This document shows, piece by piece, positions 16,313-63,992 of a stretch of DNA of 64,000 nt. Under the pieces are notes generated by a model, which searched no databases, had not been told where the DNA came from, and saw only the letters and a program-made list of their open reading frames with translations. A program made the position numbers and the translations under genes. Source of the DNA: an uncultured Muribaculaceae bacterium (GTDB lineage: Bacteria > Bacteroidota > Bacteroidia > Bacteroidales > Muribaculaceae); contig CANQZG010000010.1 of assembly GCA_947628305.1 (NCBI GenBank), positions 62,001-126,000 of the forward strand, written 5' to 3'. Each line of letters starts with the position of its first letter. Within the stretch, counting starts at the first letter, position 1.

Positions 16313-16399
16313 GTAGGGACGCGTCAACGGACGCGTCTGGGGGAATAGATGATTGCTAGCCAGTTGTAATGGAGGACGCGCTCGTTGGCGCGTCCCTAT
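16313..16399. repeat. REP pair (GTAG outward) between the hydrolase gene and secDF
   Basis: Element one: GTAG at 16313-16316 abuts a hairpin (stem GGACGCGTC, loop AACG, to 16338). Element two: hairpin at 16374-16395 with CTAT at 16396-16399, a one-base variant of CTAC. The rest of this 306-bp gap holds only the secDF promoter. Confidence 0.8.
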
Positions 16400-20189: not shown

Positions 20190-20324
20190 TCATTCGGGCC
20201 GTGGCATGTCGTGGCCGTAATGTCGTAGGGATGTTCTATCGGACGCGTCCGTTGACGCGTCCCTACGGCCATTGTGCACCCGTGATTGTGTCTGTGTCGT
20301 AGGGACGCGCCAACGGGCGCGTCC
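20190..20324. repeat. REP pair unit A1 (GTAG inward) with conserved linker
   Basis: A degenerate GGCC...GGCC palindrome and a GTAGGG remnant precede hairpin 20241-20262 plus CTAC 20263-20266. A linker containing CATTGTGCACCCGTGATTG follows, then GTAG 20299-20302 plus hairpin 20303-20324 (stem GGACGCGCC, loop AACG). The same arrangement recurs at 20636-20765 and 23686-23822. Confidence 0.85.
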
Positions 20325-20635: not shown

Positions 20636-20765
20636 ATCCGGGCCGCGTTGTTTAGCGACCGTAATGTCGTAGGGTGTTCTATCGGACGCGTCCGTTGACG
20701 CGTCCCTACGGTCATTGTGCACCCGTGATTGTGTGTATCGTAGGGACGCGCCAACGTGCGCGTCT
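20636..20765. repeat. REP pair unit A2 (GTAG inward) with conserved linker
   Basis: Hairpin 20684-20705 plus CTAC 20706-20709, the linker with CATTGTGCACCCGTGATTG, then GTAG 20740-20743 plus hairpin 20744-20765. It ends 4 bp from the stop of the gene at 20770. Confidence 0.85.
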
Positions 20766-23410: not shown

Positions 23411-23434
23411 GTAGGGACGGGGCGCGCCCCGTCC
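23411..23434 (+). repeat. GTAG hairpin, stem GGACGGGGCG
   Basis: GTAG at 23411-23414 abuts a perfect 20-bp palindrome at 23415-23434. Confidence 0.75.
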
Positions 23435-23469
23435 GAAGAATTGGCTGATTGATGGTCTATTACGACGGC

Positions 23470-23493
23470 GGACACGACACGTCGTGTCCCTAC
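23470..23493 (-). repeat. GTAG hairpin, stem GGACACGAC
   Basis: A 9-bp stem with a 2-nt loop at 23470-23489, then CTAC at 23490-23493. Confidence 0.75.
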
Positions 23494-23549: not shown

Positions 23550-23573
23550 GTAGGGTGTCGCCATGGCGACACC
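23550..23573 (+). repeat. GTAG hairpin, stem GGTGTCGCCA
   Basis: GTAG at 23550-23553 abuts a perfect 20-bp palindrome at 23554-23573. Confidence 0.75.
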
Positions 23574-23594
23574 GCCGTCGGCGGTCGCGATTTC

Positions 23595-23618
23595 GGTGCG
23601 GGCATGCCCGCACCCTAC
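23595..23618 (-). repeat. GTAG hairpin, stem GGTGCGGGCA
   Basis: A perfect 20-bp palindrome at 23595-23614, then CTAC at 23615-23618. Confidence 0.75.
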
Positions 23619-23685: not shown

Positions 23686-23822
23686 GGCCGCGACATGTCG
23701 CGGCCTTAATATCGTAGGGATGCTTTATCGGACGCGTCCGTTGACGCGTCCCTACGGTTGGTGATACATCATTGTGCACCCGTGATTGTGTGTATCGTAG
23801 GGACGCGCCAACGTGCGCGTCC
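23686..23822. repeat. REP pair unit A3 (GTAG inward) with conserved linker
   Basis: A perfect 20-bp palindrome GGCCGCGACA at 23686-23705 and a GTAGGGATG remnant precede hairpin 23730-23751 plus CTAC 23752-23755. The linker with CATTGTGCACCCGTGATTG follows, then GTAG 23797-23800 plus hairpin 23801-23822. It ends 4 bp from the stop of the gene at 23827, the same spacing as unit A2. Confidence 0.85.
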
Positions 23823-25258: not shown

Positions 25259-25332
25259 GTAGGGACGCGCCAACGAGCGCGTCCGCCATATCCCGGCGTT
25301 TTTTTCGGACGCGTCCGTTGACGCGTCCCTAC
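25259..25332. repeat. REP pair unit B1 (GTAG outward)
   Basis: GTAG 25259-25262 plus hairpin 25263-25284, a linker with CGGCGTTTTTTT, then hairpin 25307-25328 plus CTAC 25329-25332. The gap 25075-25513 holds only units B1 and B2; I see no gene in it. Confidence 0.85.
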
Positions 25333-25427
25333 GATTGCCGGTCGTTTTTTTGTCATATCAAATAGGCCGCCCCGCCGAATCCGCATTGTGTATTTTGCAA
25401 TATCGTTATGCTATCGCGACCTCTGTC

Positions 25428-25502
25428 GTAGGGACGCGACTACGTTCGCGTCCGCGGTGTCTCGGCGTTTTTTTTAGGACGCGTCCGTTGGCGCGTCCCT
25501 AC
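25428..25502. repeat. REP pair unit B2 (GTAG outward), next to the RAYT stop
   Basis: GTAG 25428-25431 plus hairpin to 25453 (stem GGACGCGA), a linker with CGGCGTTTTTTTT, then hairpin 25477-25498 plus CTAC 25499-25502. It starts with the same CCTCTGTC as unit B1 and ends 11 bp from the RAYT gene. Confidence 0.85.
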
Positions 25503-25513
25503 GATGTCGCATT

Positions 25514-26053
25514 TTATTGGTGTATACGACCTATTTCAGATGTGTTATAACGGTCTGAATTCCAACGTGACACATTGTTGCGGATGTATTCTTCAATCAA
25601 GTTTACCTCCCGCATATTGCGTATTGCGCGGTCATGATAGCGGGATTGCCAATTAAACTCAATTCCTTTCATGCGGGCATAGCAAGTGATAGCCGCTTTC
25701 ATTTTGGCGATGTAGGAAGATAATATGGGTAATCTTTTATGACCTAAAGGTAGTAATAACCGTTCCGTTGCTTCTATTAATCTGTCAGATTTATTTTCGT
25801 TGTCGTTTATGCATATTATCGCATGAAAATGATTCGGCATGACTACATAACTTGGTATTTCTATATCTTTACGATATTTGCTGACGTTCTCTAATTTATC
25901 CGTTAGGCATTCACCAATTTCAGATAGTCTCATTCTATCGTTCACAACTTCTCCCAAATAATGTATCATATTCGCTGTGCATACTGTCACAAAGAATATG
26001 CCTCCATTATAATCAATCCAGGGTGCTCTTGGCGATTTACGCGTAGGATTCAT
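25514..26053 (-). CDS. REP-associated tyrosine transposase (RAYT), HUH/Y1 family
   Basis: The 179-residue protein matches the Y1 transposase fold of RAYTs. It has GGIFFVTVCTANM (beta 1), the HUH motif in YVVMPNHFHAIICI, a helix region with IAKMKAAITCYAR, the conserved NWQSRYHDRAIRN, and the tyrosine in EYIRNNVSRWNSD, the likely DNA-attacking residue. Characterised RAYTs (E. coli TnpA-REP) bind single-stranded REP hairpins with a 5' GTAG and cut and rejoin them. GTAG hairpins flank this gene on both sides. I chose the ATG at 26053 (MNPTRKSPRAPW). The frame is open to 26245, but those 64 extra codons read through the REPs at 26125-26227. No second transposition gene is present. Confidence 0.9.
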   Translation of the reverse strand: MNPTRKSPRAPWIDYNGGIFFVTVCTANMIHYLGEVVNDRMRLSEIGECLTDKLENVSKYRKDIEIPSYVVMPNHFHAIICINDNENKSDRLIEATERLLLPLGHKRLPILSSYIAKMKAAITCYARMKGIEFNWQSRYHDRAIRNMREVNLIEEYIRNNVSRWNSDRYNTSEIGRIHQ

Positions 26054-26124
26054 AATCGGTTGATTGTGGACGCTGTGTCGTGTTATCGTTTTTTTGTGGT
26101 TGGATGTCGCCGTTCGTTTGTGGT

Positions 26125-26227
26125 GGACGCGTGGTACACGCGTCCCTACGACGTGCCGCCGTGCCGTTCCCGCCGTTTTCGTGTTGTATTGTTTCCCGCT
26201 TGTTGGGACGCGCCAACGGGCGCGTCC
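26125..26227. repeat. REP pair upstream of RAYT (GTAG inward)
   Basis: Hairpin 26125-26145 (stem GGACGCGTG, loop GTA) plus CTAC 26146-26149, then GTTG 26202-26205 (a variant of GTAG) plus hairpin 26206-26227 (stem GGACGCGCC, loop AACG). It ends 7 bp from the stop of the lipoprotein gene at 26235. Confidence 0.8.
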
Positions 26228-26842: not shown

Positions 26843-28723
26843 TTATGATTGATTGTCGGTGTTGGCAATTAGCCTCATGCGGCATTCCTTGCAGTTGAAG
26901 TCAAGGCGAAACCGTTTACGGCCCGAGACGAGGAAAAGAGGAGTAGGCCATTGCCGTCCGGCTGATGTGAGCAGACATCTTCCGGATTCACGGCGCAGGC
27001 AATATCGCGTTGTCATCACGACTGTCTCAGCACCGGTGTTGCGTGAGGTTTCTATGGCGGGTTGTATGTCGGTCACGCCGTGGTCGCGGTAGAACCGTTC
27101 AGCTAAGTGGTTGGCGATATTGTCGTGATAGGTCAACGTGTCGGTCGGATATATGGAATCCTTTTTCTCGACACCACGTTTCTCACGGGTGAGTCGTGCC
27201 CGCCGTGCCGAGTCGAGAAGTTCCGTCCCTTTACGGCGTAACGATGTCAGGAGTGAGGCCGGGATAAACCTGTCACCGAGACGGTCGTCAAGGTTGCGGA
27301 GGGTGTACACGGTCGCCCCTAACTTGGAAAGCGTCTTGAGCCGTTCCTGTCGCTGTGGACGCTGCGCAGGGGAGATTTCAGCGTCAATTACCGTTGTGAC
27401 GGCGTTGCCCCGGTCATCAGTGATATCGAGGGCGACACGTTCGTTGTCGATAGGACGCAATGCCATGTCGATGTCGATAGTGCGGCGTGTTACGGCACGT
27501 TCCACGGTGTCGTCATGCGCCTTGTCACGGTTGCGGTAAAGGACAGTGCCGGGCGACATGTAGGGTGCCGCCATGGCGGCACCGCCATGTTCGGAATCCC
27601 GTTGTGTCGCCGGGAAAAGAATGTTGCCTTCCACCCGGTTCAGCCTGAACCCGACAAGCATACCGTCGCGGTTGAAGAACGTGAGACCGTCCCCGTTGTT
27701 GAGGGGATGCGTGATATCGGCCTTGATTTTGCCGTTGTTGACTGATATTACCTTGCCCACACGTTCACCGCGCATCTTGGGGGTGTCGGGTGATGACATC
27801 GGAGAGGAGGGACGCTGTCCGTGCAGGAAATAGGATGTGAATCCGCGGTTGAACCCTTTGGAGAGGTCAGGGGTAAATCCGGCGACACTCCGGCCCGATG
27901 ACGAACGCATGTATTTTGCAGGATTGGCAGCGACTATATCATCGAGTATACGGTTGTAGGCAGCAACCGTGTTGCGCACATACAACGCATCCTTGAGACG
28001 GCCCTCGATTTTCAGGGACATGACACCGGCATCGAGCATGGACGCGATTTCATCGGCCCGGTTCATGTCGCGCAGTGACAGCAGATGTTTTTTACGGACA
28101 ATGACACGGCCCGATGCATCGACAAGGTCGTAGGGGAGACGGCACACCTGGGCGCATTCCCCACGGTTGGCACTCCGCCCGGTCGTGACAAAACTGGCTT
28201 GGCAATCGCCACTGTAACATACACATAACGCCCCGTGGATGAATGCCTCGAGGTCAACATCCGGGACAGTGGAATGAACCGCGGAGATTTCGTCAAGTGT
28301 CAGTTCGCGGGGCAGTACCAGTCGTGTGAACCCGGCATCGGCGAGGAAACGCGCCTTGGCGGGGGTGCGTATGTCGCACTGTGTACTGGCATGCAGGGCT
28401 ATCGGCGGGATATCGAGACGGAGCAGCGACATGTCCTGCACAATGAGGGCATCGACCCCGGCACGATATAGCTCGTTGACAAGGTGCTCGACCCGGCGCA
28501 GCTCGTTGTCGTAGGCCAGAGTGTTGAGTGTCACGTAGATACGCACGTCAAACTGTCGTGCGGCCTCGACCGCACGTGCAATGTCACTGACCGCGTTGAT
28601 AGCCGCCGAGCGGGCCCCGTGGGAGGGCCCGCCCATGTAGACGGCATCGGCGCCATGGTTAATGGCGTCAATCGCTATGTCGGCATCGCGCGCCGGCGCG
28701 AGCAGTTCGATTTCAGTCGGCAA
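26843..28723 (-). CDS. Peptidase U32-family protein (YegQ/RlhA-like)
   Basis: The 626-residue protein matches the U32 family: LLAPARDADIAIDAINHGADAVYMG at the front, FIHGALCVCYSGDCQAS, SANRGECAQVCRLPYDL, MSLKIEGRLKDALYVRNTV and a C-terminal domain. Despite the name, characterised members (RlhA, TrhP) take part in hydroxylating rRNA or tRNA rather than in proteolysis. The conserved cysteines in CVCYSGDC, GECAQVC and CKEC suit an iron-sulfur role. The start is a TTG at 28723: no in-frame ATG lies upstream and homologues begin here. It overlaps the 3' end of the carboxyltransferase gene by 11 bp. A REP-like hairpin lies in frame at 27560-27583 and encodes HGGAAMAAPYM. Confidence 0.88.
   Translation of the reverse strand: MPTEIELLAPARDADIAIDAINHGADAVYMGGPSHGARSAAINAVSDIARAVEAARQFDVRIYVTLNTLAYDNELRRVEHLVNELYRAGVDALIVQDMSLLRLDIPPIALHASTQCDIRTPAKARFLADAGFTRLVLPRELTLDEISAVHSTVPDVDLEAFIHGALCVCYSGDCQASFVTTGRSANRGECAQVCRLPYDLVDASGRVIVRKKHLLSLRDMNRADEIASMLDAGVMSLKIEGRLKDALYVRNTVAAYNRILDDIVAANPAKYMRSSSGRSVAGFTPDLSKGFNRGFTSYFLHGQRPSSPMSSPDTPKMRGERVGKVISVNNGKIKADITHPLNNGDGLTFFNRDGMLVGFRLNRVEGNILFPATQRDSEHGGAAMAAPYMSPGTVLYRNRDKAHDDTVERAVTRRTIDIDMALRPIDNERVALDITDDRGNAVTTVIDAEISPAQRPQRQERLKTLSKLGATVYTLRNLDDRLGDRFIPASLLTSLRRKGTELLDSARRARLTREKRGVEKKDSIYPTDTLTYHDNIANHLAERFYRDHGVTDIQPAIETSRNTGAETVVMTTRYCLRRESGRCLLTSAGRQWPTPLFLVSGRKRFRLDFNCKECRMRLIANTDNQS
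27560..27583 (+). repeat. GTAG hairpin inside the U32 coding region
   Basis: GTAG at 27560-27563 abuts a perfect 20-bp palindrome (GGTGCCGCCA and its complement) at 27564-27583. On the coding strand the element is read in frame as GAAMAAPY. Confidence 0.7.
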
Positions 28724-31528: not shown

Positions 31529-31554
31529 GTAGGGACGCGCCAACGAGCGCGTCC
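31529..31554 (+). repeat. Single REP between convergent genes
   Basis: GTAG 31529-31532 plus hairpin 31533-31554 (stem GGACGCGC), 11 bp from the NlpC/P60 stop. The preceding bases (TTGCGAAACTGATTTTG) resemble those before other REPs in the window. Confidence 0.85.
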
Positions 31555-45813: not shown

Positions 45814-45899
45814 GTAGGGACGCGCCAACGTGCGCGTCTGTTATCGCAAATGGTTGATAATACGTTATTTTGAAGACGCGAACGTAGTCGCGTCCCTAC
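45814..45899. repeat. REP pair unit C1 (GTAG outward) between convergent genes
   Basis: GTAG 45814-45817 plus hairpin 45818-45839, a linker with TTGATAATACGTTATTTTGA, then hairpin 45874-45895 plus CTAC 45896-45899. The linker and order resemble the pair at 62215-62299. Confidence 0.85.
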
Positions 45900-62214: not shown

Positions 62215-62299
62215 GTAGGGACGCGCCAACGTGCGCGTCCTTTATTATATATGATTAATAATCTGTTTTTTGAAGACGCGCACGTTGGCGCGTCCCTGT
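62215..62299. repeat. REP pair unit C2 (GTAG outward) between convergent genes
   Basis: GTAG 62215-62218 plus hairpin 62219-62240, a linker with GATTAATAATCTGTTTTTTG, then hairpin 62274-62295 plus CTGT 62296-62299 (a variant of CTAC). Same order and similar linker as unit C1. Confidence 0.85.
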
Positions 62300-63913: not shown

Positions 63914-63966
63914 TATTTTATATTCTTGAGTTGAAAATTGGATAAGAATAAGAATCCGGTATCGAG

Positions 63967-63992
63967 GGACGCGCACGTAGGCGCGTCCCTAC
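63967..63992 (-). repeat. REP upstream of the SusE/F-like gene
   Basis: Hairpin 63967-63988 (stem GGACGCGC) plus CTAC 63989-63992, 54 bp upstream of the gene start. It marks a break or 3' end of the next gene beyond the window. Confidence 0.8.

Follow-up and report, generated by a model that had tools for sequence, protein, structure and literature searches.

The RAYT Gene and Its Flanking Hairpins

The window, i.e., the whole stretch of 64,000 nucleotides that was analysed, which comes from a gut-dwelling member of the Muribaculaceae, contains on its minus strand an intact open reading frame at 25514-26053, which translates into exactly 179 residues and carries MPNHFH (with H75 and H77) and Y156. 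Based on these motifs and on the predicted fold, this reading frame is identified as a RAYT (TnpA-REP), a class 2 Y1 HUH transposase, which bears out the initial annotation of a 179-residue protein with the HUH and tyrosine motifs of this group. The HUH motif H75-F76-H77 is encoded at 25823-25831 (minus strand) and the catalytic tyrosine Y156, which corresponds to Y115 of the E. coli protein in the alignment to the structure 4ER8, at 25586-25588 (minus strand), with both histidines and the tyrosine being invariant in alignments of 12 and of 49 sequences.

The alignment of the window RAYT (P0001) to 4ER8 also brings together the equivalent of N119 (N160) and the segment WQ....ER/DR...R, in which W94, Q95, E100, H101, and R104 of E. 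coli match W135, Q136, D141, R142, and R145. As these E. coli residues have been tied to the reading of GTAG (PMC6006769), the segment W135-R145 (WQSRYHDRAIR, 25619-25651, minus strand) is the putative equivalent of the GTAG-reading segment W94-R104. Across 49 relatives, no substitution is seen at H75, H77, W135, Q136, or Y156, and at least 90% of the sequences retain D141, R145, and N160.

The only NCBIfam family that matches the protein is NF047646 (REP_Tyr_transpos), with E=1.7e-13 and 50.7 bits against a curated cut-off of 80, which is an annotation threshold rather than a biological definition, and which is narrow, given that it was reached by none of 20 genomes and by only one of the 14 named control genomes. 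The match to Pfam Y1_Tnp also lies below its cut-off (E=7.6e-4, 20 bits against a gathering value of 23). In the case of the AlphaFold2 model (mean pLDDT 87), the complex of E. coli TnpA-REP with its REP, 4ER8, ranks first in both Foldseek and VIA-align, with a VIA-align Z of 12.6 over 130 residues at 3.0 Å, against 10.8 and less for the IS608 transposases.

The RAYT gene is flanked on both sides by REPs in inverted orientation, and no REP lies inside the gene itself. A REP-A dimer, or REPIN, of 75 bp is found directly downstream at 25428-25502 (hairpins 25428-25453 and 25477-25502), followed by a second dimer of 74 bp at 25259-25332, which consists of two inverted GTAG hairpins (25259-25284 and 25307-25332). 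Directly upstream lies a REP-A-like hairpin with a GTAG foot (26125-26149, minus strand) and, further on the same side, a REP-A hairpin on the plus strand at 26202-26227, although these two do not form a dimer of the type found downstream. The GTAG hairpins initially annotated on both sides of the gene are thus present at 25259-25332, 25428-25502, and 26125-26149, whereas the foot at 26202-26227 has decayed to GTTG. Single REPs fold as DNA hairpins, with z of about -4 to -6. Both of the dimers that adjoin the gene contain runs of T7-T8 and the spacer CCGGCGTTTTTTT (25291-25305 and 25461-25476), whereas the spacers of the dispersed dimers of 84-90 bp are AT-rich.

The Copies of REP-A in the Genome

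The sequence GTAGGGACGCG, with one mismatch at most, occurs 26 times in the window, where 1.04 occurrences are expected from shuffling, and its exact form is found 174 times (86+88) in the 3.67-Mb genome, against three (2+1) for the reversed pattern used as a control. A genome-wide count of the full hairpin, which had been suggested as a check in the initial annotation, gave 104 exact copies (49+55) of GTAGGGACGCG-NNNACGNN-CGCGTCC, in which NNNACGNN is the 8-nt middle, and none of the reversed control. The 9-bp stem with an AACG loop that had been proposed for the hairpin exists as one variant, but many of the genomic copies have an 8-bp stem and a 6-nt loop. The base of the REP-A stem is GGA/TCC.

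While the genome-wide counts are pattern searches, the finer analyses were based on a sample of 853 kb, which represents approximately 23% of the genome and was in part selected for its proximity to known REPs. In this sample, a de novo scan recovered 135 stem-loops tagged with GTAG, the median for a tetranucleotide being 9, and the only commoner tag was TAGG, with 162 stem-loops, which we read largely as GTAG sites shifted one base out of register. A looser definition of REP-A gave 119 copies in the sample, 111 of which lie outside open reading frames, even though these frames, called by length alone (at least 120 aa), cover 89% of it. The copies favour the gaps between convergent genes (44 copies, in a class that makes up 58 of the 339 gaps) and avoid the divergent ones (5 copies, 66 of the 339 gaps). 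Apart from a single pair of 42 bp, the 44 plus/minus pairs in the sample form units of 30, 71-76, or 84-90 bp, and the 30-bp double-foot class accounts for 13 of them, several with one decayed foot. An identical 26-nt sequence is common to 28 of the sampled copies, which suggests that REP-A has spread recently.

Elsewhere in the window, REP-A is found as dimers at 16313-16399 (87 bp), 45814-45899 (86 bp), and 62215-62299 (85 bp), and as hairpins at 20241-20266, 20684-20709, and 23730-23755 on the minus strand and at 20299-20324, 23797-23822, and 31529-31554 on the plus strand, together with a 30-bp unit of the double-foot length class at 63963-63992, the left foot of which is CGAG. Two further families are represented by a REP-B dimer (23411-23493), of the type that flanks a second RAYT on contig C24, and by a REP-D dimer (23550-23618) and a REP-D hairpin (27560-27583, plus strand), of a type that has no detected RAYT. 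In the approximately 630 bp between 23193 and 23822, REP-A, REP-B, and REP-D lie next to one another as a mosaic of three REP families.

These counts bear on the possibility of an ordinary transposase of the IS200/IS605 type, in which case the hairpins would be the ends of an insertion sequence. The HUH-Y1 superfamily is common to both types of protein, and the fold searches also match the IS608 and ISDra2 transposases. On the other hand, the gene is present as a single copy, its second-best match in the genome being only 49% identical, against more than 100 hairpins, and the protein has the WQ...R segment typical of TnpA-REP, in addition to NF047646 as its sole NCBIfam family and 4ER8 as the first match in both fold searches, which makes this explanation extremely improbable.

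Other RAYT/REP Pairs in the Same Genome

The genome contains three diverged RAYT genes, i.e., that of the window (on contig C10), the C24 RAYT, which is 49% identical to it, and the C9 RAYT, which is 39% identical to P0001, and each of them adjoins its own type of REP. The C24 RAYT is surrounded by REP-B hairpins (GGACGCGACGTGTCGCGTCC and GGACAGGGCGTTGCCCTGTCC) and the C9 RAYT by REP-C (GGACGCTTTTCAAAGCGTCC), with one hairpin within the gene in each case. The C9 gene was suspected, from split matches, of being interrupted, an idea that was rejected, given that its open reading frame is intact, with 188 aa, and contains the REP in frame. The word “domesticated”, which had been applied to the window RAYT at the outset, would be compatible with the occurrence of each RAYT as a single copy.

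No RAYT was detected in the genome for a fourth family, REP-D (GGTNCNGCCATGGCNGNACC), of which there are 37 copies. The loop core GCCATGGC of REP-D recurs in the REPs of two related RAYTs, L017 and L238, both of which fall with the C9 RAYT in the tree. It is conceivable, if on balance unlikely, that the A/C10, B/C24, and C/C9 systems exist side by side while the RAYT of REP-D is gone, with a different RAYT, for example C9, maintaining REP-D or mobilising it in trans. If this were true, both the specificity of RAYTs for their REPs and mobilisation in trans could be tested inside one cell.

REPs and RAYTs among Related Genomes

Pattern searches of 36 other Muribaculaceae genomes returned no copies of REP-A, and the best match to P0001 there is 48% identical. 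A relative with an equal number of REPs and no RAYT, which had been named beforehand as the finding that would count against the pairing, was not seen for REP-A among these 36 genomes. REP-D and the REP-B pattern tested are likewise absent from the 36 genomes, and in the same pattern search of the family REP-C was found only in the present genome (8 copies) and in one other, G035 (37 copies), in which the C9 RAYT has no close relative. For the GTAG repeats of one genus (g3), no cognate RAYT was detected, and the RAYT-like genes at the loci examined do not have that repeat in their flanks. None of the RAYT-like genes examined in G001, G004, G019, and G032 (NF047646 matches, with several weaker ones left out) is flanked by the GTAG repeat of its genome. 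As REP-D in this genome, REP-C in G035, and the REPs of genus g3 all occur without a detected RAYT, the presence of REPs and RAYTs is not strictly coupled. The presence of a RAYT is therefore no strict requirement for the persistence of REPs at 20-40 copies. In G004, a RAYT-like gene that is more distant (L159:466-1260, in G004:C104) is flanked by its own GTAG-CCGCGGTTTTC family (CCGCGGTTTTCAACCGCGG) and forms a further RAYT/REP pair.

A broader comparison covered 90 related RAYT loci, mostly from Bacteroidota. A GTAG hairpin is located inside the gene or no more than 350 bp from it at 69 of the 90 loci, against one of 90 in shuffled sequences; it lies inside the gene at 44 loci, which include the C24 and C9 RAYTs, and on both flanks at 33. 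The density of GTAG hairpins is 2.27 per kb near the RAYT genes and falls to 0.04 per kb at distances above 900 bp, i.e., a 57-fold difference. These values can be set against the possibility that the gene is surrounded by chance by hairpins with no relation to it, acting as terminators or regulatory palindromes, as might be suggested by their extragenic position and by the T runs inside the two dimers near the RAYT. In addition to the density and to the 44 loci with a hairpin inside the coding sequence, the six terminator-like sites in the 3.6 kb scanned do not exceed the shuffles (mean 5.0), and only one of them, at 23801-23822, is a REP hairpin, so this possibility is barely credible.

The distances between RAYTs and those between their REPs are weakly correlated (Mantel rho 0.24), with none of 2000 permutations reaching as high a value. 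The tree places the C10 RAYT as sister to that of C24 (99/72, not starred) and the C9 RAYT with those of G010, G008, and L238 (96/96). A Prevotella RAYT (L171) comes first in the ranking by identity to the C24 RAYT (52%) and has the same 20-nt hairpin in its flanks as the C24 RAYT, although in the tree it is part of the same open group rather than a resolved sister. No clean rule was found between the base that precedes GTAG and the RAYT residues at the E100/H101 positions. An empty-site comparison was not possible because the main matches in G001, G002, G008, G010, and G004 are only 63-72% identical and scattered.

Two other observations arose from this set. RAYTs of two Pasteurellaceae (Rodentibacter and Actinobacillus seminis, L191 and L199), with GTAG hairpins, fall within the mostly Bacteroidota set, which suggests transfer between phyla. 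The RAYT reading frames of G012 and G002 extend upstream through repeats, in the form of a 54-nt REP tandem (L014:1255-1500) and a 15-nt tandem that codes for VGTHA (L012:430-590), so these proteins could have a repetitive N-terminal tail.

Relationship to Known REP/RAYT Systems

The biology of REPs and RAYTs has been studied mostly in the gammaproteobacteria. Nunvar 2010 (PMC2817692) found RAYTs that met the criteria of that study only in this group, and the GTAG families listed by Di Nocera et al. 2013 (PMC3733652) are from Proteobacteria, Cyanobacteria, Chloroflexi, and the PVC group, but not Bacteroidetes. Quentin et al. 2018 (PMC6006769), by contrast, described a TnpA-REP subclass 2.4, given there as equivalent to Bertels group 4, which is abundant in Cyanobacteria and Bacteroidetes and has GT[AG]G REPs, including REPs in frame between the HUH and the Y motifs. 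The features of this subclass are the motifs NH[IFV]H, WQ, and YIxNNP, together with REPs that either have a double foot or are long, with the base of the stem then formed by three G-C pairs (PMC6006769). The initial annotation knew of no description for this family of bacteria, and no paper on REP/RAYT in Muribaculaceae was found in the open-licence literature, although subclass 2.4 had already been described in Bacteroidetes.

The window RAYT resembles subclass 2.4 in its NHFH, WQ, and YIxNN and in the GTAG foot directly at the stem; of the paired REP-A units, 13 of 44 fall in the double-foot length class, several of them with a decayed foot, and an in-frame REP between HUH and Y is found in its sister RAYTs C24 and C9 and in many relatives. 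It differs from the subclass in its Y motif (YIRNNV, rather than YIxNNP), in having no REP inside the gene, in the base of the REP-A stem (G-C, G-C, A-T, rather than three G-C pairs), and in that REP-A was seen only in this species. As the locus fits subclass 2.4 in most of the features tested, it represents a known RAYT/REP partnership rather than a new kind of system. Subclass 2.6 of the Bacteroidetes, with NH[LIV]H, YIH[QN]NP, and atypical flanking structures (PMC6006769), was rejected for this protein, which has NHFH, YIRNNV, and regular GTAG hairpins.

The window RAYT is also similar to the E. coli TnpA-REP (RayT, yafM; 4ER8) in its predicted fold, catalytic residues, GTAG-reading positions, and the inverted REP pairs around the gene, but the two proteins are only 26% identical over 130 aligned residues, and E100/H101 are replaced by D/R. 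In addition, the REP-A stem is perfect, with no bulge, and its sequence is unrelated to the E. coli REP beyond GTAG. Like the GTAG-tagged repeats surveyed by Di Nocera et al. 2013 (PMC3733652), the present families consist of GTAG and a short stem-loop, as singles and head-head dimers, with several families per genome.

The paired REP-A units have size classes of 30, ~73, and ~86 bp. The REPINs of Pseudomonas, known from the work of Bertels and Rainey in 2011, are reportedly two inverted REPs that form one dispersed, RAYT-tied unit with a variable spacer, as do the REP-A dimers; they differ from the present units, with these sizes, in both RAYT subclass and REP sequence.

A Proposed Mechanism

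It is highly probable that the window RAYT is a single-copy TnpA-REP of the subclass 2.4 type which reads, cleaves, and spreads REP-A. In this reading, the anatomy of the locus, motif conservation, copy number, between-genome REP specificity, and extragenic placement are observed, and the binding, cleavage, mobility, and any host benefit are inferred. The RAYT would recognise REP-A in single-stranded DNA, the template of the lagging strand being the probable site, by its 5' GTAG foot and GGACGCG stem-loop, and Y156 would cleave there through HUH chemistry. This cleavage may lead to the copying or movement of REP-A dimers (REPINs of ~73 or 86 bp and the 30-bp double-foot form) to extragenic sites. 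In this way, REP-A would have spread jointly with the C10 RAYT within this single species, and each of the other two RAYTs, C24 and C9, may act likewise on its own REP type. The RAYT is very probably responsible for the more than 100 scattered copies of REP-A, and the initial view of a RAYT placed within its cognate REP cluster is upheld by the motifs, the fold, the REP-A copy number and restriction to one species, and the same arrangement at 69 of the 90 loci.

One other pathway to the same genomic pattern would be that of a relic, in which the spread of REP-A is over and the hairpins are retained for a function in the host, such as 3'-end protection, termination, or supercoiling, without the enzyme acting. 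The preference for convergent gaps and the avoidance of divergent ones are what 3'-end elements should show, REP-D is still present even though no RAYT was detected for it, and one of the flanking REPs has a decayed foot. However, the open reading frame of the RAYT is intact with all of its catalytic positions kept, the identical 26 nt in 28 sampled copies points to recent spread, and the REPs that flank the gene are mostly intact, all of which renders a relic improbable.

Significance

Much of the repetitive DNA seen between the genes of this genome can be assigned to the REP families. Having three pairs of RAYT and REP, in addition to a fourth REP family for which no RAYT was detected, this bacterium offers a natural set for the study of how a RAYT picks its hairpin, and lets one ask whether REPs outlive their enzyme.
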